Shown one piece after another: positions 33,155 through 47,000 of a stretch of DNA of 64,000 nucleotides; position 1 is the first letter of the stretch, and every line of letters starts with the position of its first letter. This DNA comes from Alphaproteobacteria bacterium (GTDB lineage Bacteria; Pseudomonadota; Alphaproteobacteria; Geminicoccales; Geminicoccaceae): positions 1 through 64,000 of the forward strand of contig JALUAG010000030.1 in assembly GCA_027045875.1 (NCBI GenBank), in the 5' to 3' direction. The notes beneath the pieces were generated by a model. That model did no database searches. It saw only the letters and a program-made list of their open reading frames with translations, and was not told the origin of the DNA. A program made the position numbers and the translations under genes.

Positions 33155-34012
33155 TCATTCCAGCGAGATCTCGACCCGGCGGTTCTGCGGCTCGCGCACG
33201 CCGTCGGGCGTGGGTACCCGGGGCTTCGTCTCGCCGTACCACTTGAGTTCCATGGCGGTCTCCGGCACGCCCATCTCCGCCAGCACCTTGGCCACCGCCT
33301 GCGCCCGGCGCTTGGAGAGGTCGAGATTGTAGGCGGCCGGGCCGGAGCGGTCGGCGTGGCCGGCGAGGATCAGGCGGGTGGCCTGGCCCGCCTCGTAGTC
33401 TTCCGCCGCCTGGGCGATGATCTTGCGCGCCACCGGCGTGATATCGGCGTGATCCCAGGCGAAGAACACGATGTAGACGTTTTCGATGCCGCTCGCCAGC
33501 GCATCCTCCACCGCGGCCATCGCGGTCATGAACCGCGCCTTGCAGTCCTCCGCCCTGTCGGGATCGAACTCGGATCCCTCGAGCCAGCAGTCGAAGGCCG
33601 TCTGCGCCCGCGCCGCGGCGAGGGGGGCGAGGCGGCGCGCATCGCGGTCGTAGGCGTCCATCAGCCGTGCCCGGGCGGCGGAGAGCTCCTCGGCCGCGGC
33701 GGCGTCGATCTTGCGCAGGGCCACCTCGTCCGGCAGCACGTTGACGCCGCTCGCCGCCGCCACCGCCTTGCGGCCGAAATGCCGGGCGTCCCCGAAGTCC
33801 ATCTGCGCCTTCTCGTAGTCCACGATCTCCACGTAACCGGCCCGGAGTCCCTGGACGAAGGCGGGCCCGTGGGGCTGCATCTCGCGCACCGCCGGGATGT
33901 CGTTGGCGAGCAGGAAATAGCCGTCCATGGCACGTCTGTCGACTTTGCCGGCGCAGCCCGCGACCACGAGGCTCACCAGCAGGGCGAATACGACCTTGGC
34001 GCCATTCAGCAT
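33155..34012 (-). CDS. OmpA-family outer-membrane lipoprotein
   Basis: A 285-residue lipoprotein. The signal MLNGAKVVFALLVSLVVAGC gives a lipobox VVAGC with Cys20 as lipidation site. A middle domain (about 30-160) is of the alphaproteobacterial type often found before OmpA domains. The peptidoglycan-binding OmpA domain (about 175-285) has the diagnostic ILAGHADRSGPAAYNLDLSKRR with Asp and Arg for meso-diaminopimelate. ATG 34012 gives the clean lipobox; the 28-codon upstream extension does not. The 268-bp region upstream to 34280 contains no gene. It likely tethers the outer membrane to peptidoglycan. Confidence 0.88.
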   Translation of the reverse strand: MLNGAKVVFALLVSLVVAGCAGKVDRRAMDGYFLLANDIPAVREMQPHGPAFVQGLRAGYVEIVDYEKAQMDFGDARHFGRKAVAAASGVNVLPDEVALRKIDAAAAEELSAARARLMDAYDRDARRLAPLAAARAQTAFDCWLEGSEFDPDRAEDCKARFMTAMAAVEDALASGIENVYIVFFAWDHADITPVARKIIAQAAEDYEAGQATRLILAGHADRSGPAAYNLDLSKRRAQAVAKVLAEMGVPETAMELKWYGETKPRVPTPDGVREPQNRRVEISLE

Positions 34013-34280
34013 CGCAAAATCCCTTCGACTGCGGATCCGGGGTCCGCGACCGGCCGGCTCCGTATCCTTGCCAACCCGCTCCCGGGAGGTGGCCATGCGG
34101 CGGACGGCTCGTACAACCGCCGCGATAACAAGGCCAAACGGCGACCCGGATCAAGACGTTTCTCGGCGGCCACCGCTGCGGACGGCGGGAGTGTTGCGCC
34201 CGGCCAACGGCCGGCGCATCCGGCGTCGGGACCCCGACGGCGGTGGCACGGACGGGCGGATGGCGTGTCCGCCTCGCGCC

Positions 34281-35069
34281 TCAGCCGGCGGCGCCGTTGT
34301 GCTCGCCGGCACCCAGGGTCTCCTCGAAGAACCGGCGGACTTCTTCCACCCGATGTTCGAGACGCACGAGCCCGGCCGCATCGATGCCGTTCCTCTCCGC
34401 GGCCTCGGCGAGTTCGGCCACGCGCTCGGCGCCGACGTTGCGGCTGGCCCCCTTGAGGGCGTGGGCGAGACGCCGGAGCTCCGGCGCGCTGGCGAGCGCC
34501 CGCCGCATCTCCTCGAGGTAGCGGGCGGCGGTGGCGAGGTAGAGCGAGCCGATCTCCACGATCAGTTGACGGTCGCCGTCGGCGATCTCGGCGAGACGGT
34601 CGAGATCCATGGGAGGTGCCATGAGTTCCTGTCCGTGGAAGGGCAGCGGACGCTCCGGCTCGACGGTCTCGCCGCCACCCTGCTGGGTGAGTTCGCGGAT
34701 GGTGCCGAGCAGCCTGCCGATGGACAGGGGCTTGGCGAGATAGCCCTGGAGGCCGGCCTCCTTGCAGGCGTCCCGGGCCCGCGCCTCGTCCCAGGCGTCG
34801 CCGAAGACGAGGATCGGGATCCCGTCGAGGGCGCGTATCTCGCGCCGCAGCCAGGCCCCGAGTTCGAGTCCGCTGCCGTCCGGCAGGTTGAGGGCGACGA
34901 GGACGAGCGCGAAGGGGGTGCGGCGCGCGGCACGGCGCGCCTCGGCGGCGGTGCTCGCACAGCAGACGGCATATTGCAGCTTGTTGAGAACGAGCTGCAT
35001 GAGGCTGCGGCTGAGGGCAGGATCGCCGACGATGAGTATGGTCTTGGTATCGTCCTGCGGTTCGTGCAT
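34281..35069 (-). CDS. Degenerate receiver domain fused to an intact Hpt domain
   Basis: A 262-residue two-domain signalling protein. Residues 9-125 have the receiver fold, but the phosphoacceptor position is Ala59 (LVLVALNLPDGSG, normally Asp), the acidic pair is reduced to Gly15-Asp16, and the switch Thr/Ser is Gly90. The Lys113 of YLAKPLS is kept. Residues 155-245 form an Hpt domain with the phosphoaccepting His203 in LAHALKGASRNVGA, fully canonical. The protein therefore looks like a phosphotransfer protein with a non-phosphorylatable receiver used for docking. The ATG at 35069 is preferred; longer in-frame starts lack similarity. No kinase adjoins it. Confidence 0.85.
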   Translation of the reverse strand: MHEPQDDTKTILIVGDPALSRSLMQLVLNKLQYAVCCASTAAEARRAARRTPFALVLVALNLPDGSGLELGAWLRREIRALDGIPILVFGDAWDEARARDACKEAGLQGYLAKPLSIGRLLGTIRELTQQGGGETVEPERPLPFHGQELMAPPMDLDRLAEIADGDRQLIVEIGSLYLATAARYLEEMRRALASAPELRRLAHALKGASRNVGAERVAELAEAAERNGIDAAGLVRLEHRVEEVRRFFEETLGAGEHNGAAG

Positions 35070-35124: not shown

Positions 35125-36093
35125 TCAAGGAAGCATAACCGATGGTATGCAGGACCGGTGGCCGTGAACGGCCACCGCCAGCTCTCCCGCCAGCCGCGCG
35201 TTGGCGACCGCGAGGGCGTGGTTGAGGCGCACCGTGCGCCCATCCGAGAGCTCCGCGAGGCAGGCCAGAAGACAGGGGGTTTCGGCGGCTCCGGAGATTC
35301 CGGCCCGCGCGGCGCGCCGGCGGCAGCGGTCGAGCAGCGCTTCCAGGGTCGCGGCATCCAGGGCGAGTTCCGCGGGTGGAGGCTGGGCGATCACGACGCT
35401 GCCCGGCCAGCCCAACGCCTCCTGTGTCCGGTGCAGCTCCGCGAGGGCGGCGAGATCGTCGATACGGGGGACCGGGATCTCGGAACGCGTGACGTAGAAG
35501 GCGGGCAGGCGGTCGGTCCGGAAGCCGACCACCGTCGCCGACAGGCTTTCCAGCACTTCCATCGTGCGCGGCAGGTCGAGGATGGCCTTGATGCCGCTGC
35601 ACACGACGCTGGCCGGCGAGCGTCGCAGTTCGTGGAGATCGGCGGAGATGTCGAGGCTCGTCTCGCCGCCTCGATGGACGCCGCCGATGCCGCCGGTGGC
35701 GAGGATGCGGATGCCGGCACGGACGGCGAGGTAGAGGGTGGCGGAGACGGTGGTGCCGGCCGGGACGCGCGCGGCGAGCGCCGGGGCCAGGTCGCGGGTC
35801 GCGCATTTGCGTGCCCGTTCGTCGAACGCCAGCCGCTCGAGCTCCGCCGGCTCCAGACCGATGCGGGCGGATCCGTCCACCAGGCCGATCGTGGCGGGTA
35901 CGGCGCCGGCGCGCCGCACCGCCTGCTCCATGGCGAGCGCGGTCTCGAGATTGTCCGGGCGCGGCAGGCCGTGGGTGAGGATCGCGGTTTCGAGGGCCAC
36001 CACGGGTGCCCCTTGCGCGAGCGCCGTGGCCACCGGCGCCGACAGCCGCAGGCGCCCCTGCGGGGAGGTCGAGCCGGCCATCTCCTCAGGCAC
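35125..36093 (-). CDS. psuG: Pseudouridine-5'-phosphate glycosidase PsuG
   Basis: A PsuG protein of about 320 residues. PVVALETAILTHGLPRPDN lies near residue 30, the metal/active region ATGGIGGVHRGGE and LDISADLHEL near 132-150, and the catalytic Lys in VVCSGIKAILD near residue 165. It cleaves pseudouridine-5'-phosphate to uracil and ribose-5-phosphate. The start is ambiguous: GTG 36093 overlaps the upstream gene by 8 bp, and ATG 36081 lies in TGAGGAGATG, coupled to the upstream stop. The usual partner kinase PsuK is not present; a cyclophilin-like protein takes its place in the operon. Confidence 0.9.
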   Translation of the reverse strand: MPEEMAGSTSPQGRLRLSAPVATALAQGAPVVALETAILTHGLPRPDNLETALAMEQAVRRAGAVPATIGLVDGSARIGLEPAELERLAFDERARKCATRDLAPALAARVPAGTTVSATLYLAVRAGIRILATGGIGGVHRGGETSLDISADLHELRRSPASVVCSGIKAILDLPRTMEVLESLSATVVGFRTDRLPAFYVTRSEIPVPRIDDLAALAELHRTQEALGWPGSVVIAQPPPAELALDAATLEALLDRCRRRAARAGISGAAETPCLLACLAELSDGRTVRLNHALAVANARLAGELAVAVHGHRSCIPSVMLP

Positions 36094-38957: not shown

Positions 38958-40640
38958 CTAGCGCGCGAGCGCGCCCGCGGGCGCCAGCGTCACCGTCGGG
39001 CAGGGACGTGCGGGCGTCCGGACGCCGCGGAGAAAACGACGGCACTCCGTCTCGGGCAGGGGCTCCGTGAAGAGATAGCCCTGCGCCTCGTCGCAGCCCT
39101 CGCGCAGCAGGAAGGCCCGCTGGACGTCCTCCTCGACCCCTTCGGCGAGGACGCGTTTGCCGAACAGGCGGCCGAGGGCGATGATGGTGCGCATCAGTGC
39201 CTCGTCGGTGGGATCGCCGCCGAGGCCGCGGACGAAGGCCTTGTCCACCTTGATGCGCTCGGCCGGCAGCCGCTTGAGATAGGCGAGGGAGGAGTAGCCG
39301 GTTCCGAAATCGTCGATCGCGAGACGCACGCCGAGCCTGCGCAGTCGCTCGATGTTGCGGCGGATGGCGGTCTGCGCCGGGTCGACGAAGAGGCTCTCGG
39401 TGAGCTCCAGTTCGAGCTGCGAGGCCGGCAGGCGATGGCGTTCGAGACAGCGCTGGGCCAGTCCGGCGACGTCCTGGTGGCGGAGCTGGGCCACCGAGAT
39501 GTTGACGCACATGGTGACGCGGATGCCCTCGTCCAGCCAGCGCCGCGCCGTCGCGCAGGCCTCGTCGATCAGCCAGGCGCCGAGGGGCCGGATCAGCCCG
39601 CTCGCCTCCGCGACCGGAATGAAATGGCCCGGCGGCAGGGCGCCACCGGGCCTTCCGGGCCAGCGGAGCAGGGCTTCGACGCCCGTCACGCGGCCGCTCG
39701 CGAGATCGAACTGCGGCTGGTAGTGGAGGGCGAACTCGCGCCGCTCGAGGCCCCGCTTGATCTGCATTTCCATGAGCTTGCGGTGGCGGAAGGCGGCGTC
39801 CATGCGCGCGTCGTAGACCACGAGACGGTTGCCGCCGGCGATCTTCGCCTGGTCGAGTGCCAGTTCCGCCGAGCGCAGGAGCTGCTCCGCCTCCTGAGCG
39901 TGCTCCGGGAAGCGGGCGAGGCCGGCACTGATGGCGAGACTCAGCTCGAGCCCGCCCAGATGGAGCGGGGCCCGCAGCCGGGCCAGGATGCGCTCGGTGA
40001 TCCGCGGCGCGCTGTGGCCGATGGTGGCGAGAACGAGGAAGCGGTCACCGCCGAGACGGCGGGTCAGCTCGACATGCCCCCGGAACTGCTCCAACCGGCG
40101 TTCGAAGACGGTGAGGAGGGCATCGCCCACACGGTAGCCGTAGACGGCGTTGACGTCGCGCATGCGGTCGACGTCGACCACCAGCAGGAGCGCCTGCGCC
40201 CGCCGCAGGCGCAGCCCGCGCACGATCCGCTCCAGCTCACCGGTCAGGTTCCGCCTGACCTCCTCGTCGCCCGGGGCGACCGCCGGCGGCCCCTTGGCCG
40301 AGCGGATCTGCGGACCGACGGAAACGCCGGGAACCCGGACCGCCGTCCGGTGGATGCGTCCGGCGAAGAAGCCCGCCGCCCACATCAGGAGCGCAGCGCC
40401 CAGCCACGGGAGGTGGACGGTCCCCCAGCCCGTCGGATCGAGCCGGAGACGCGGTGCCGCACCGGCCCCGGCCAGTGCCACCGCCGCTCCGGCCACCGCG
40501 AAGGTGGCGAGGACGGCAGCCGAAGATGCAGCGCGGAGCTCTCCGACCAAGCGCCGAACCCGCTTCGCCCTGCCCTCCGCACGATGCCGTCCCGTCCGCT
40601 CCCGCGGGTGCTGAGGGATCATCTCGTCGCCGCCCAACAC
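38958..40640 (-). CDS. Membrane protein with degenerate GGDEF and intact EAL (c-di-GMP phosphodiesterase) domains
   Basis: A 560-residue protein from GTG 40640 (ATG 40622 is an alternative). Two N-terminal membrane segments (about 40-60 and 76-95) are followed by a GGDEF domain (about 140-280) whose signature reads RLGGDRF, so the catalytic Glu is replaced by Arg. The C-terminal EAL domain (about 295-540) keeps EALLRW (322-327), NIS, ELTES, DDFGTGYSSLAYLKRLP and EGVEE, the metal and catalytic residues of active phosphodiesterases. It should degrade c-di-GMP with the GGDEF part as a regulatory GTP-binding or structural domain. Sensory input would be at the membrane or by a short N-terminal region. 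Confidence 0.9.
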   Translation of the reverse strand: MLGGDEMIPQHPRERTGRHRAEGRAKRVRRLVGELRAASSAAVLATFAVAGAAVALAGAGAAPRLRLDPTGWGTVHLPWLGAALLMWAAGFFAGRIHRTAVRVPGVSVGPQIRSAKGPPAVAPGDEEVRRNLTGELERIVRGLRLRRAQALLLVVDVDRMRDVNAVYGYRVGDALLTVFERRLEQFRGHVELTRRLGGDRFLVLATIGHSAPRITERILARLRAPLHLGGLELSLAISAGLARFPEHAQEAEQLLRSAELALDQAKIAGGNRLVVYDARMDAAFRHRKLMEMQIKRGLERREFALHYQPQFDLASGRVTGVEALLRWPGRPGGALPPGHFIPVAEASGLIRPLGAWLIDEACATARRWLDEGIRVTMCVNISVAQLRHQDVAGLAQRCLERHRLPASQLELELTESLFVDPAQTAIRRNIERLRRLGVRLAIDDFGTGYSSLAYLKRLPAERIKVDKAFVRGLGGDPTDEALMRTIIALGRLFGKRVLAEGVEEDVQRAFLLREGCDEAQGYLFTEPLPETECRRFLRGVRTPARPCPTVTLAPAGALAR

Positions 40641-40802: not shown

Positions 40803-41018
40803 GTGGCGCACGCGCCACGCCGGGGGATGCGGGCCGGGAGGTCGCCGGCCAGGTCGCCGGCGGCGGATCATGCCCCTCGGCCGCGCCACTCTGGCCAGTG
40901 CGGCGATCCCCGCCTATATGGACGCGGGGCGGCGTCTTGCGGCGGTATCGGCGAGGGAAGGCCGGTTTCCGCCGCGACGGCGGGGACGTCCGTATCCGCC
41001 ACCACCACGGGCAGGAAC

Positions 41019-42395
41019 GTGCGCCTAACCTGGGAGCAGCCAACAACCGCGGCCGAGCCGGGGACTCGCGGATGGCTCGGCCGTCTGACGACCTTGCTGG
41101 CGGGCGGCCGGCCGGACGAGCAGGGACGGGTGAGCCACTACGGTCTCGCCCTCACCCGGTGGGTGGCGGTCATCGGCCAGCTCTTCACCATCCTGTTCGT
41201 TCATTTTTCGCTCGGCATCCCGCTGCCCCTGGCGGCACTCCTGCCGGCGGTGGCGTTCAGCGTTCTCGTCAATCTCGGCCTCGCCCTCGCCCTCGGCTGG
41301 CGCGCCCGCCTGTCGGAGCGGGCGGCGGGGATGCTCTTCGTCTACGACATCCTCCAGCTCGCCTACCTGCTCTGGCTCACCGGCGGCATCCAGAACCCCT
41401 TCAGCGTCCTGCTGCTGGTGCCCGTCGGCCTCGCCGCCGGGCTCCTCGGCCGGGCCTGGACGGTGGGACTCACGGTACTAACCCTCCTCGTGGTGACCGT
41501 CATTTCGCTCGCCGCCGACGCCCTGCCGTGGTACGGGGGCGGGCTGCGCCTGCCGCGGCTCTATCTGGTCGCCGGCTGGGCGGGAATCAGCATCGCCATC
41601 GTGCTGATCGCGGTCTACGCTTGGCAGTTCGCCGAGGAGGCCCGGCAGCGGGCCAATGCCCTTGCAGCCACCCAGCTCGCCCTGATGCGGGAACAGCAGC
41701 TCTCCGCCCTGGGCAGCCAGGCGGCCGCGGCGGCCCATCTCTTGGGCAGTCCGCTCGGGACCATCGCCGTGGTCGCCAAGGAGCTCGCGCGGGAACTCCC
41801 GGAAAGCCACCCGCTCTACGAGGACGTGCGGGAGATCCTCGAGCAGACGAGGCGATGCCGGGAAATCCTGGCCACGCTCGGTCAGCAGCGCGACGAGGGG
41901 GCGCTCGAGCGGCTGACCCCGGTGCCGCTGACCTCGGCGCTGGCCGAGATCGCCAAGCCCTTCGAGCGTCCCGGTGTCGCGCTGCGTATCGAACTGCACG
42001 AGGAGGACGGGACGCCGGAACCGCAGATTGCCTTGCCGCCCGAGATCCGGCATGCTTTCGCCAACCTCATCGACAATGCCATCCAGTTCGCGAACAGCGA
42101 GGTTCTGGTGACCGTCCGGCCCTCCCGAAGCAGACTGCTGGTGACGATCGAAGACGACGGGCCGGGATTTTCGCCGGAAGTGCTGGGCTGGCTGGGCGAA
42201 CCCTATCTGTCTACTCGTCACGACAAGGGAGGTCTCGGGCTCGGCGTGTTCATTGCCAAGACGCTGCTTGCCCGAACCGGAGCGACCATGCATTTTGACA
42301 ATACACGGCGCGGTGCACGGGTGACCCTGCGGTGGCCCGGCGATGCGCTGGAGCGGGCCGTCGAGGAGACCAGCAATGGGTGTGGAAACCCCTGA
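41019..42395 (+). CDS. regB: RegB/PrrB-type redox-sensing histidine kinase with altered H-box
   Basis: A 458-residue kinase from GTG 41019 (GCAGGA upstream), close to the 460 of PrrB; the longer upstream frame is low-complexity noise. About six membrane helices (residues 43-200) include the quinone/redox-box motif GGIQNPF at 122-128. The DHp helix keeps the RegB pattern AAAAAH with His240, but the next residue is Leu (HLLGSPL) where RegB and nearly all HisKA kinases have Glu (HELGTPL). The ATPase domain has N (NLIDNAIQFA), G1 (DDGPGF) and G2 (GGLGLGVF) boxes intact. The two following regA genes are its likely targets. No cysteine lies beside the phosphorylation helix. Confidence 0.92.
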   Translation: MRLTWEQPTTAAEPGTRGWLGRLTTLLAGGRPDEQGRVSHYGLALTRWVAVIGQLFTILFVHFSLGIPLPLAALLPAVAFSVLVNLGLALALGWRARLSERAAGMLFVYDILQLAYLLWLTGGIQNPFSVLLLVPVGLAAGLLGRAWTVGLTVLTLLVVTVISLAADALPWYGGGLRLPRLYLVAGWAGISIAIVLIAVYAWQFAEEARQRANALAATQLALMREQQLSALGSQAAAAAHLLGSPLGTIAVVAKELARELPESHPLYEDVREILEQTRRCREILATLGQQRDEGALERLTPVPLTSALAEIAKPFERPGVALRIELHEEDGTPEPQIALPPEIRHAFANLIDNAIQFANSEVLVTVRPSRSRLLVTIEDDGPGFSPEVLGWLGEPYLSTRHDKGGLGLGVFIAKTLLARTGATMHFDNTRRGARVTLRWPGDALERAVEETSNGCGNP

Positions 42396-42966
42396 CGCGC
42401 AGCAGGCAGCGGCCCTCGCGGGTCTGGCCAAGGGCGGCGAGCCGCCCAGGCTGCTGCTGATCGACGACGATGCGCCGTTGCGGCGGACACTGGAGCGGGC
42501 ACTCGCCCGCCGCGGGTTCCTCGTGCATCCGGCGGCCGGGGTACGCGAGGCGTTGGCCGTCGCCCATCAGGTGAAGCCGGATTTCGCGGTGGTCGATCTG
42601 CGCCTCGAGGACGGTAGCGGGCTCGAGCTCGTGCGCCGGCTGCGCGAGATCCACCCCAAGATCCGGATCGTCATCCTGACCGGCTACGGCAACATCGCCA
42701 CCGCGGTGGCGGCCATCAAGGCCGGGGCGGTGGACTATCTCGCCAAGCCGGCGGATGCCGACGACGTGGTCAACGCGCTCCTGTGCAGCGGCAGCGGCCT
42801 GCCGCCACCGCCCTGCAATCCCATGTCCGCCGATCGTGTGCGCTGGGAGCACATCCAGCGGGTGTTCGAGCAGTGCGGGCGCAACGTTTCGGAGACCGCC
42901 CGACGGCTCAACATGCACCGGCGGACCCTGCAGCGCATTCTGAACAAGCGGGCGCCGCGCGAGTAG
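42376..42966 (+). CDS. regA: RegA/PrrA-type response regulator (copy 1)
   Basis: A 196-residue regulator. The receiver domain (about 25-140) has Asp30-Asp31-Asp32, phosphoacceptor Asp74 (AVVDLRLEDGSG), Thr102 and Lys124. A short proline linker leads to the Fis-type HTH domain with the family-invariant QCGRNVSETARRLNMHRRTL and QRILNKRAPR. Its ATG lies 20 bp inside the end of regB, so the two are translationally coupled. RegA activates or represses respiration, nitrogen- and carbon-fixation or photosynthesis genes; the targets here are unknown. An N-terminal extension of about 20 residues precedes the receiver. Confidence 0.94.
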   Translation: MGVETPDAQQAAALAGLAKGGEPPRLLLIDDDAPLRRTLERALARRGFLVHPAAGVREALAVAHQVKPDFAVVDLRLEDGSGLELVRRLREIHPKIRIVILTGYGNIATAVAAIKAGAVDYLAKPADADDVVNALLCSGSGLPPPPCNPMSADRVRWEHIQRVFEQCGRNVSETARRLNMHRRTLQRILNKRAPRE

Positions 42967-43008
42967 GCTTCGCTCGGCCGCGTCCTCTCGGGGAGGAGCG
43001 ACGGGATC

Positions 43009-43566
43009 ATGGCTGCGGCGGGCGTACGGACGGGGGCGCGGCGCGGTCGGCTGCTCATCGTCGACGACGACGCGGGAATGCGGCGCACGCTGGGGAGGCT
43101 GCTGCAACGCGCCGGCTTCGGCGTGCTGACGGCGGCGAGCCTCAAGGAGGCCTACGAGGTGGTGGCCGACCAGCCGCCCGACTTCGCCGTGGTCGATCTC
43201 AACCTGGCCGATGGCCACGGCATGGAGCTGGTGCGCGGCCTGCAGGAGATCCGCCCGGGCATCCGGGTGGTGGTGCTGACGGGATACGACAGCATCGCTT
43301 CCTCGGTGGTGGCCACCAAGGCCGGGGCCTGGGGCTATCTGGCCAAGCCCGTGGACACCGAGCGGCTCATCGCCACCCTGCTGGGCGACGCGCCGGTCGT
43401 CTCCGAAGAGGGCACGCGGCCCATGTCGGCCGATCGCATCCGCTGGGAGTACATCCAGCGGGTGTTCGAACAGTGCGGCCGCAACGTCTCGGAAACCGCA
43501 CGGCGGCTCCACATGCATCGCCGCACTCTGCAGCGGATTCTGAGCAAGCGCGCTCCCCGTCCGTGA
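43009..43566 (+). CDS. RegA-type response regulator (tandem paralogue)
   Basis: A 185-residue second RegA, 42 bp after the first. The receiver is intact: Asp19-Asp20-Asp21, phosphoacceptor Asp63 (AVVDLNLADGHG), Thr91 and Lys113. The receiver differs from copy 1 at many positions. The DNA-binding domain is almost identical (GRNVSETARRLHMHRRTLQR with a KRAPRP end). The pair should therefore recognise the same DNA while receiving different or graded input from the kinase. Its own ribosome site (GGGGAGGAG) precedes ATG 43009. The 387 bp after its stop contain no convincing gene. Confidence 0.92.
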   Translation: MAAAGVRTGARRGRLLIVDDDAGMRRTLGRLLQRAGFGVLTAASLKEAYEVVADQPPDFAVVDLNLADGHGMELVRGLQEIRPGIRVVVLTGYDSIASSVVATKAGAWGYLAKPVDTERLIATLLGDAPVVSEEGTRPMSADRIRWEYIQRVFEQCGRNVSETARRLHMHRRTLQRILSKRAPRP

Positions 43567-44720: not shown

Positions 44721-47000
44721 ATGACGGAACACAGCAGGCTGCCCGCCACATCGCCGGAAGCGACCGAGGCCGCTGCGGCCGCGAACCAGGGCGCGGAGAC
44801 GGCCGGCCGGGCCGGGACTCCGGTGGCCCCCGTCGCCGAGGCGATCGCGCCGCCGCCGCCCGGCGTGGTCGAGACCGTTCCGGTGCCACCCGGTGCCAGG
44901 GTCGTGCTCTCGGATCCGGCGTTCGACCCGCGTGTCGCGCGCTACGTCGTCGACGGCGAGGATCTCGTTGTCACCCTCGACAACGGTGCCGTGCTGCGTC
45001 TCGAAGGGTTCTTCGCCGCCGGCGACAATCCGCCCAGCCTGTCGGTACTCGGCGGACCGGACCAGACGGCCACCACACTGCTCGCCGGCGCGGCCGAGGC
45101 GGCGGCGGTGGAGCCCGCGGCCGGTCCCGGGGCGGCGGCACCGGCGCACGGCGGCGGGGCGGGGTTCGCCCCGTTCGCGGCCGGTGACATCGGCGACGGG
45201 CTGACGCCGACCGGCGTGCTGCCGCCGACCGAACTGGCGGGCGGCCCCTTCGCCGGCGGCATCCTCGAGGGCGTCGATCCGGGGATCGGCGGTCCCGCCG
45301 CGACCGGGCCCCTGCCGGGCGAGGCGCCCGAGATCAGCGTGCAGAACTACGTTCGGGCGACGGCGGCCGAGCGCAGCGTCGCGTTCGATCCGGCCAGTAC
45401 GGACAGGCAGCTCAGGAACCCGGACAGCACCGATCCGGTCGAGCGCAACGGCGTCGATCCCCGCAACCTCACCCTCGACCGGACGCGGGAGGTGGAGGTC
45501 GTCTTCCAGAGTGAGGAGGCGGGCTACGACAACACCCTCGGGTTTTTCACCATCGACGAGGACGGCACGTTCGGCGATGTCGGCATCATCTTCCCGAACG
45601 TGAGCCAGGTCGGCGACAGCGACGGCGACGGCACCCTGACGCCCGGCACGCGCACCTCGCTCGGCACCTTCGACGCCGGCACCCGGCTCGGCTTCTTCAT
45701 CATTCCCGACGGTGCGAACGCGAATCCCGGGCTCGAGGGGCTGCTCGGCAGCGGCCGGTTCGAGCTGCGGAACGGGAATACCGGCGAGCCCCTGAAGATC
45801 ACGGACACCGCCGCCGACGACCCGATCCTCGTGCACATCGCCGACGACGGTACCGAGACCGTGCTCTCCGGCGCCCTTTTCTTCTCCACCGACGCCACGC
45901 CGGAAACCCCCGAGGAGAACGCGCTCAATCCGGACGGTGCGGGCAAGACCGCCTCGGGCTTCAAGGCCAAGGAGGGCGATCTCCTGATCGGGTTCGAGGA
46001 CCTCACCGGTCCCGGTGCCGACAACGACCTGAACGACGTCGTCTTCCGGGTCCACTTCAAGCCGGTCTACGAGAACTTCTTCTTCGTCAAGGATCACGAG
46101 ACCCCGGACTTCAAGGTACGGATCTCCGACACCGACAGCACCCGGCTCTCGGGGGCCGAGGTGACATTCCAGGGAGGGCAGCAGCCCGGTGACCGGCTCA
46201 CGCTCGCGACCTTCGAGGACGCCGACGGCGACGGCATCCTCGACGGCACGAACATCGCGGTGACGGAGAATCCCGACGGCAGCCTGACCTTCTCCGGGAT
46301 CGATTCCGTCCTCAACTACGAACAGGTGTTGAACGACGTACGGTTCGTCACCGACGGCGGCGCGCCGCCCGGCAACCGCTTCGTCGGCTTCGAGGTCACC
46401 GACGCGGAGGGGCACCGATCGGACGTCGCCGTGTCCAAGGTGAACGTGCTCGACAATCTGATCGTCGGTACAGAGGGGAACGACGTCCTGACCTCCGGCA
46501 ACAAGATTCACGCCCTCTCGGGGCGCGGCGGCAACGACCTGCTCACCGGCAAGGGCACCGCCGACTATCTCGACGGCGGCGACGGTCGCGACCAGCTGTT
46601 CGGAATGGGGGGCGACGATCTCCTCCACGGTGGTCCGGGGATCGACACCCTCTGGGGCGGTGACGGCGCCGACACCTTCCGCGTCACGAGCCTCGGTGAC
46701 GGTCGCGACATCATCCGCGATTTCGATCGCACCGAAGGCGACCGGATCGATCTTTCGGAGCTCCTCGCCGGCAGCGGCATCGACGCCCCGGGTGCCGTGG
46801 AGGACGACTTCGTGCGCATCGCTTACACCGATTTCGACCGTGACGGGTTCGAGGACGACGTGCGCGTGCAGGTGGATCTCGATGGCCCGGGCGGCGAGCA
46901 CGTCTTCAACCAGGTGCTGGTCCTCACGGATCCGGCGGGACTGCCGCCCGGCAGCCTGACGCTGGCCGATCTGGGCGCATCCGACGGCGCCACCAGCTGA
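44721..47000 (+). CDS. RTX / DUF4114 repeat protein, predicted type I secretion substrate
   Basis: A 759-residue acidic protein without a Sec signal. An N-terminal Ala/Pro-rich region (about 1-175) contains a VVDGEDLVVTLDNGAVLRLEG segment like those of type I-secreted adhesins. A DUF4114 domain (about 265-455) is recognised by GFFTIDEDGTFGDVG, the DSDGDGTL loop and FEDLTGPGADNDLNDVVF, which is a calcium-binding pattern. A cadherin-like middle region follows. RTX nonapeptides lie near 605-655 (GRGGNDLLTGKG, DGGDGRDQLFGMGGDDLLHGG). The C-terminus has the DG.D.I.DFD..EGDRIDLSELL pattern of type I targets. No transporter genes adjoin it. Confidence 0.87.
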   Translation: MTEHSRLPATSPEATEAAAAANQGAETAGRAGTPVAPVAEAIAPPPPGVVETVPVPPGARVVLSDPAFDPRVARYVVDGEDLVVTLDNGAVLRLEGFFAAGDNPPSLSVLGGPDQTATTLLAGAAEAAAVEPAAGPGAAAPAHGGGAGFAPFAAGDIGDGLTPTGVLPPTELAGGPFAGGILEGVDPGIGGPAATGPLPGEAPEISVQNYVRATAAERSVAFDPASTDRQLRNPDSTDPVERNGVDPRNLTLDRTREVEVVFQSEEAGYDNTLGFFTIDEDGTFGDVGIIFPNVSQVGDSDGDGTLTPGTRTSLGTFDAGTRLGFFIIPDGANANPGLEGLLGSGRFELRNGNTGEPLKITDTAADDPILVHIADDGTETVLSGALFFSTDATPETPEENALNPDGAGKTASGFKAKEGDLLIGFEDLTGPGADNDLNDVVFRVHFKPVYENFFFVKDHETPDFKVRISDTDSTRLSGAEVTFQGGQQPGDRLTLATFEDADGDGILDGTNIAVTENPDGSLTFSGIDSVLNYEQVLNDVRFVTDGGAPPGNRFVGFEVTDAEGHRSDVAVSKVNVLDNLIVGTEGNDVLTSGNKIHALSGRGGNDLLTGKGTADYLDGGDGRDQLFGMGGDDLLHGGPGIDTLWGGDGADTFRVTSLGDGRDIIRDFDRTEGDRIDLSELLAGSGIDAPGAVEDDFVRIAYTDFDRDGFEDDVRVQVDLDGPGGEHVFNQVLVLTDPAGLPPGSLTLADLGASDGATS

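Follow-up and report, generated by a model that had tools for sequence, protein, structure and literature searches.

Among the closest described counterparts of the locus analyzed here is the ShkA-ShpA-TacA phosphorelay of Caulobacter crescentus, in which a hybrid kinase with a pseudo-receiver followed by a true receiver is combined with a separate phosphotransferase (PMC7010744). Pseudo-receivers, defined as receiver-family domains without the phospho-accepting Asp (PMC12632262, PMC4395418), made up 2.0% of receivers (3,111 of 152,269) in one survey, and a 2025 review calls the switching mechanisms of bacterial pseudo-receivers "a mystery" (both PMC12632262). Precedents for receiver action without phosphorylation are given in that review, by the first receiver (Rec1) of ShkA (PMC7010744), and by VieB of Vibrio cholerae, an accessory protein with a receiver, which binds the kinase and thereby inhibits a phosphorelay, and which still inhibits as the D62A variant (PMC4352251).

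The 64,000-nucleotide stretch of alphaproteobacterial DNA analyzed here (the window) carries a gene for a standalone protein in which a pseudo-receiver (REC*) is joined to an Hpt domain. The receiver fits the published definition, but here Hpt is the only other domain and a Gly/Ala/Gly set of replacements is fixed in the main group of orthologues. In contrast to the ShkA system, some members of the family have a pseudo-receiver on the Hpt protein itself. The domain order is that of the REC-Hpt end of hybrid kinases such as ArcB, but no kinase is attached and the receiver is unable to shuttle phosphate. VieB, as described, differs in its intact Asp, its TPR domain, and its lack of an Hpt (PMC4352251). 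Should the CtrA reading considered below be right, ChpT would be the protein in the equivalent position, but ChpT belongs to PF10090 and resembles histidine kinases, not the Hpt fold (PMC3433190), and the protein studied here (P0001) has no PF10090 match at E <= 0.01. No description of a standalone pseudo-receiver-Hpt protein was found in the accessible portions of the open-licence literature on pseudo-receiver/Hpt and REC-Hpt proteins, and "Hpt" occurs 0 times in the main text of PMC4395418.

Gene model and domain organization

The gene runs from an ATG at 35067-35069 to a stop codon at 34281-34283 on the minus strand, as originally predicted. The reading frame stays open 5' of this start, with a further ATG at 35357; the shorter form was preferred because orthologues begin aligning at about the chosen ATG and GGAAG directly precedes it. 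The features of the gene are as follows (counts refer to the 14 main-group orthologues described below).

34281..35069, minus strand: pseudo-receiver-Hpt (REC*-Hpt) gene, 262 aa, stop codon included
34686..35048, minus strand: pseudo-receiver domain, residues 8-128 (Pfam PF00072 over 11-124; AlphaFold2 elements)
34320..34616, minus strand: Hpt domain, residues 152-250 (Pfam PF01627 over 175-245; AlphaFold2 helices)
35022..35027, minus strand: codons of G15 and D16, acidic-pair site (GD in 14/14)
34893..34895, minus strand: codon of Ala59, phospho-Asp site (Ala in 14/14)
34800..34802, minus strand: codon of Gly90, switch Thr/Ser site (Gly in 14/14)
34731..34733, minus strand: codon of Lys113, conserved Lys retained (Lys in 14/14)
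34461..34463, minus strand: codon of His203, phospho-accepting His of the Hpt domain by motif (His in 14/14)

The sole Pfam matches at E <= 0.01 were Response_reg (PF00072, E 3.9e-15, 56.4 bits against a cut-off of 30.2) and Hpt (PF01627, E 1.5e-12, 48 bits against 24.6). The residues read in the original prediction were all recovered: Ala59 in place of Asp, one acidic residue lost (G15/D16), Gly90 where the switch Thr would stand, Lys113 kept, and the Hpt hallmarks around His203 (A202-H203-A-L-K206-G207). Within this His-x-x-Lys-Gly motif, His and Gly were present in 14/14 main-group orthologues and Lys206 in 13/14. Given PF01627 and the motif, the protein is predicted to be active in phosphotransfer, while its receiver, a PF00072 domain without the phospho-Asp, is predicted to function without phosphorylation.

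The AlphaFold2 model (mean pLDDT 74.3, pTM 0.60; input alignment of 4 sequences) showed a receiver of the (beta-alpha)5 type joined to a helical Hpt bundle by a linker of low confidence (residues 131-154); given this linker and the pTM, the model does not fix the orientation of the two domains or their interface. The best 50 Foldseek matches listed were receivers or entries containing receivers, and the best 60 of 294 matches in a profile search of solved structures were ordinary receivers, with no REC-Hpt protein noticed in either set.

Distribution across the family and class

The GTDB family of the window (f1) comprised 31 genomes, which were examined by profile search plus translations. 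The Hpt gene was present in 27 of these, including 24/24 genomes that were at least 90% complete and 3/7 below 90%; the four in which the profile search did not find it (G007, G012, G026, and G028) were all less than 90% complete. Fourteen genomes, the main group, encode a full-length protein with Ala at the Asp position. A further three (G004, G019, and G024) encode an eroded receiver with Gly at this position and Gln or Glu for Lys113, and ten (G003, G005, G010, G011, G013, G015, G018, G020, G021, and G025) encode the Hpt domain alone. The fusion and its substitution, for which a search of relatives had been suggested, recur with Ala in 14 and Gly in 3 of the 17 full-length homologues. Asp occurred in 0/17, so the intact-Asp orthologues that would have marked this copy as simply decaying were absent from the family. 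In the alignment of 81 receivers described below, the switch Thr column was misaligned and left out. Across the main group, which spans six genera, the set G15-D16-A59-G90-K113 was common to 14/14 orthologues. The missing Asp and the five shared residues in relatives are more than chance; receiver decay did occur, but elsewhere in the family and not in the main group.

The conserved neighbors of the gene were compared among the genomes.

33155..34096, minus strand: OmpA-domain lipoprotein-like gene, syntenic downstream neighbor (Pfam OmpA, 67.5 bits)
35125..36093, minus strand: PsuG, Indigoidine_A/pseudouridine-glycosidase-like, syntenic upstream neighbor (PF04227, 344.5 bits)

In 21 of the 27 genomes having the Hpt gene, an OmpA-domain gene followed it on the same strand; PsuG lay upstream in 13 of the 27 (1.5 kb away in G003). 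Since eight of the ten Hpt-only genes (all but those of G010 and G015) adjoin the OmpA-domain gene and/or PsuG, they look like the same locus minus the receiver; a search of their surroundings at E <= 0.01 gave no remnant of a receiver. G021 has two Hpt-only loci of similar identity (L055 and L056), one by the OmpA-domain gene and the other near a GGDEF-EAL gene, representing a duplication or an assembly duplicate. The receiver is an accessory and the Hpt domain the core, as other genera eroded or dropped the receiver yet kept the Hpt; because ten genomes retain the Hpt domain without the receiver, the core step does not depend on it.

A sample of 385 genomes from the class was searched by profile at 1e-25, and 46 matched. 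The four f1 genomes in the sample matched at 1e-95 or better and all others at 2.7e-33 or weaker, the latter mostly in open frames longer than 700 aa, in keeping with hybrid kinases. Six non-f1 matches were translated, yielding three standalone REC-Hpt proteins from family f83 (L142, L143, and L154), one 318-aa frame (L152), and two hybrid kinases; the Asp is intact in the three f83 proteins and in L152. The neighborhood of the f83 genes (genomes G112, G318, and G226) differs from that of the f1 locus. The closest named records belonged to two alphaproteobacterial metagenome-assembled genomes (82-84% identical) and to "Bacterium HR40" (56%). One receiver beside one Hpt domain is found as a natural series, namely with fixed Ala, eroded, or absent, with an Asp-bearing cousin in f83, and the role of a phospho-dead receiver is thereby testable through orthologue comparison.

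Selection and conservation of the receiver

Nei-Gojobori dN/dS values were calculated for nine genome pairs within genera g1 and g5. Values ranged from 0.05 to 0.24 in the receiver and from 0.15 to 0.55 in the Hpt domain, with the receiver lower in 9/9 pairs (in one of them only by 0.149 vs 0.150). Mean pairwise identity among the 14 orthologues was 0.53 for the receiver and 0.48 for the Hpt domain, with the receiver higher in 70/91 pairs. As 7.6% of column-bootstrap draws of the receiver-minus-Hpt difference were <= 0, the safe statement is that the receiver is under purifying selection and at least as conserved as the Hpt domain. Twenty receiver positions were invariant across the 14 sequences, and the slowest 12-residue segment of the whole protein (residues 12-23) evolved more slowly than the Hpt His motif.

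Evolutionary rates, scaled to the mean of each domain, were compared with those of the two receivers of the hybrid kinase described below (pseudo-receiver Rec1 and true receiver REC2) and of CtrA, using 14 genomes for REC*, REC2, and Rec1 and 13 for CtrA. Helix alpha1 had a relative rate of 0.41 in REC*, against 0.82 in REC2, 1.39 in Rec1, and 1.72 in CtrA; for the beta5-alpha5 loop the values were 0.33, 0.67, 0.73, and 0.49, respectively. The beta1-alpha1 loop (0.31, 0.51, 1.21, and 0.21) also evolves slowly in canonical receivers, which leaves alpha1 and the beta5-alpha5 loop as the distinctive elements of REC*. Helix alpha4 gave 1.53 in REC*, 1.47 in REC2, 0.59 in Rec1, and 1.44 in CtrA. 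Receivers meet Hpt and DHp bundles on the side formed by alpha1 and the beta5-alpha5 loop. The 4-5-5 face of intermediary receivers is not used for relay partners (PMC9981736).

These rates bear on the original proposal that the receiver works without phosphorylation through docking, dimerization, or sensing. Docking through alpha1 and the beta5-alpha5 loop is favored by their conservation, dimerization through alpha4-beta5-alpha5 is disfavored because alpha4 evolves fast, and ligand sensing is a less probable alternative.

Evolutionary origin

In a FastTree phylogeny of 81 receivers, a short domain giving modest resolution, the 17 f1 receivers formed one clade (local support 0.92) that was sister to hybrid-kinase receivers (0.852) and apart from those of response regulators; the grouping with hybrid-kinase receivers carried local supports of 0.852 and 0.935. 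REC-Hpt ends of hybrid kinases, such as that of C18 in the same genome, were nearest in this tree, and the best partial matches in NCBIfam included the C-terminus of ArcB (55 bits, cut-off 838). The Asp was kept in 63 of the 64 other receivers, the exception being Rec1. The protein is probably the severed REC-Hpt C-terminus of a hybrid kinase. The simplest history would be that this end was severed, the Asp was lost in f1, and the receiver was later trimmed in several genera.

In the Hpt tree, Hpt-only members nested among receiver-bearing ones: G003 grouped with G004 and G005 (supports 93 and 92), and G010, G011, G015, and G020 grouped with genus g5 (97). Such nesting suggests several receiver losses, although the short domains and the poorly resolved rpoB tree would allow another history. 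Since the backbone of the f1 rpoB tree was poor (supports of 22-38 at many nodes), receiver gain and loss cannot be dated from it; G027 was set aside in this tree (wrong frame, branch of 1.9), and G008, G009, G018, and G021 gave no rpoB match. The Hpt domain of one hybrid kinase (L150) fell within f1 on a long branch. The f83 proteins, which possibly resemble the ancestral form, joined f1 with a support of just 43.

Candidate donor kinase

The genome of the window (G000) yielded 22 HATPase_c hits, assigned by eye to GyrB, ParE, MutL, HtpG, a CheA, and 17 sensor kinases. Just three of the hits, C18, C99, and the CheA-like C10, combine a kinase with a receiver on its C-terminal side in a single frame. 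An Hpt domain is built into C18, and the Hpt at the end of contig C76 presumably belongs to C10. C99 contains a degenerate receiver followed by an intact one, and lacks an Hpt.

L206:1998-3725 (G000:C99), minus strand: ShkA-like hybrid kinase, HK-REC*-REC; the first receiver is a pseudo-receiver without Asp

The best solved relative of C99 was PDB 6qrj ("Hybrid kinase", which we take to be ShkA), with E 3.1e-65 over residues 67-567, nearly the whole length. Its best NCBIfam model was BarA at 361 bits, far under the cut-off of 890, so that "ShkA-like" denotes architecture and best solved relative, with orthology unproven. By eye, the seven kinases aligned had F or Y at the place of ShkA Y338 but, in contrast to ShkA, no exact copy of its DDR linker motif. 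Kinases of the C99 type were present in 30/31 f1 genomes (exception, G020). With an Hpt-less HK-pseudoREC-REC kinase residing in the same genome as a separate Hpt protein, the predicted proteins parallel the kinase arrangement of the ShpA relay.

By elimination among the hybrid kinases of this draft genome, C99, the sole one lacking an Hpt, would be the best donor, a proposal held with moderate confidence. Co-evolution was assessed as the partial correlation of Hpt distances given rpoB (1000 permutations; 19 genomes, or 14 for Rec1). The Hpt domain correlated with REC2 at a partial r of 0.27 (30/1000 permutations as high) and with the kinase DHp-CA region at 0.24 (43/1000), a weak but suggestive signal; Rec1 gave no support (0.12, 226/1000). 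The gene does stand apart from any possible donor kinase, as had been noted, but the accompanying suggestion that it may serve several kinases is not supported: just one hybrid kinase in this genome has an intact C-terminal receiver and no Hpt. C33, C72, and C109 had appeared to be hybrids from hit coordinates; translation gave separate kinase and regulator frames. At C82 (G000:C82:1011-3369, L209), a REC-PAS-kinase frame precedes separate genes for a receiver and an Hpt, an arrangement that looks like a second split relay in this genome.

Candidate target

No orphan TacA-like regulator was noticed in the genome of the window, where the four NtrC-type regulators translated each lie beside a kinase. 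CtrA is a candidate target. The genome encodes a CtrA at G000:C12:6043-6783 (L086, L257; NF045991, 389 bits, cut-off 350), and CtrA-like proteins 57-95% identical to it, the lowest perhaps paralogues, were found in 29/31 f1 genomes. A convincing ChpT was not found in f1: PF10090 matched in 9/31 genomes, 5 over the cut-off, with a best E of 6.2e-8, compared with 183/289 genomes of the class sample, 176 over the cut-off, with a best E of 4.6e-35. The four f1 hits that were translated, one of them in a ChpT-sized frame, were all sensor kinases; of the seven further hits listed, one is kinase C72, the single match of the genome of the window. None of the 17 sensor kinases of this genome was a CckA-like membrane hybrid. 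A 2010 survey raised the idea of ChpT substitutes for organisms having CtrA and CckA (PMC2877005).

One reading of these findings is that a ShkA-like kinase would pass phosphate through the (REC*-)Hpt protein to CtrA, replacing CckA-ChpT in f1, with the dead receivers of the kinase and the Hpt protein acting as docking or sensing brakes. The genome would then offer a concrete candidate route for CtrA phosphorylation where CckA and ChpT were not found. We consider this unlikely. Co-evolution of the Hpt domain with CtrA was nil (partial r 0.03 for the receiver, 409/1000 permutations as high, and 0.14 for the DNA-binding domain, 168/1000), in a set in which the CtrA row of some genomes may be a second paralogue. 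Other orphan regulators exist in the genome of the window, the absence of CckA covers the kinases of this one genome of 31, and CtrA may receive phosphate from a different kinase or be active without phosphorylation.

Proposed function and alternative explanations

The account to which we give a roughly even chance is that the gene encodes a relay protein derived from the REC-Hpt half of a hybrid kinase, the Hpt domain of which would be fed by the REC2 of a C99-type kinase while the dead receiver docks without phosphoryl exchange. REC2 would transfer the phosphoryl group to His203, a step inferred with moderate confidence, and His203 would pass it to a response regulator. More tentatively, the dead receiver may use alpha1 and the loops surrounding its former active site to dock onto a helical bundle with a His (the Hpt of the same protein, a different Hpt, or the DHp of the kinase), and such docking could cap, position, or gate transfer. 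The pairing with the kinase was reached by elimination within a single draft genome, together with a weak correlation, for a gene that is not beside that kinase, and a conserved alpha1 could also reflect binding of a ligand or of an unrelated partner protein.

A ligand site would fit a sensor in which small-residue replacements, with D16 and K113 kept, open a pocket for c-di-GMP or an anion that controls the Hpt domain. All three replacements are Gly or Ala and are invariant together with D16 and K113 in 14/14 orthologues, as are S116 and R119 on the same side. Arg is, however, a common residue of receivers at the position of R119. Rec1 of ShkA binds c-di-GMP at its beta5-alpha5 surface (PMC7010744), but the ShkA-type Rec1 of f1 has a slow alpha4 and a fast alpha1, the reverse of REC*, and REC* is not known to bind a ligand, leaving the sensor rather doubtful. 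That the receiver is a relic, which lost its function on separation from the kinase and is at different stages of being discarded across f1, would account for its erosion in three genomes, its absence from ten, and the nesting of Hpt-only proteins among receiver-bearing ones; purifying selection in both genera tested (9/9 pairs) and the 20 invariant receiver positions make this quite improbable. Hpt proteins elsewhere can be shared, and the distance of the gene from any possible donor kinase would suit a hub serving several kinases, with the receiver adding docking choices, but with a single Hpt-less hybrid kinase found in the genome of the window such a hub is very unlikely. The docking relay fed by a C99-type kinase is the reading we prefer.

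Other genes near the locus

A redox-type regulatory set lies elsewhere within the window.

40803-42395, plus strand: RegB-type redox kinase (NCBIfam, 452 bits, cut-off 350)
42343-42966, plus strand: RegA-type regulator (NCBIfam, 278 bits, cut-off 250)
43009-43566, plus strand: second RegA-like regulator (NCBIfam, 223 bits, cut-off 250; phospho-Asp motif looks intact)

The RegB-type kinase was rejected as a donor, as it has its own RegA-type set at 40803-43566 and no receiver is attached to it. In many f1 genomes a GGDEF-EAL gene 34-42% identical to that at 38958-40640 of the window is found no more than about 10 kb from the Hpt locus (L042-L057, L196-L201), frequently as a frame of some 1000 aa. 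Considered as a possible receiver-bearing target, it was checked in 12 frames, at least three of which were a wrong frame or fragment; no receiver start was seen by eye in the first 330 residues of the others. Further along the window, a large frame at 44721-47000 (plus strand) ends in C-terminal GGxGxDxLxG-type repeats that by eye resemble those of secreted calcium-binding repeat proteins.
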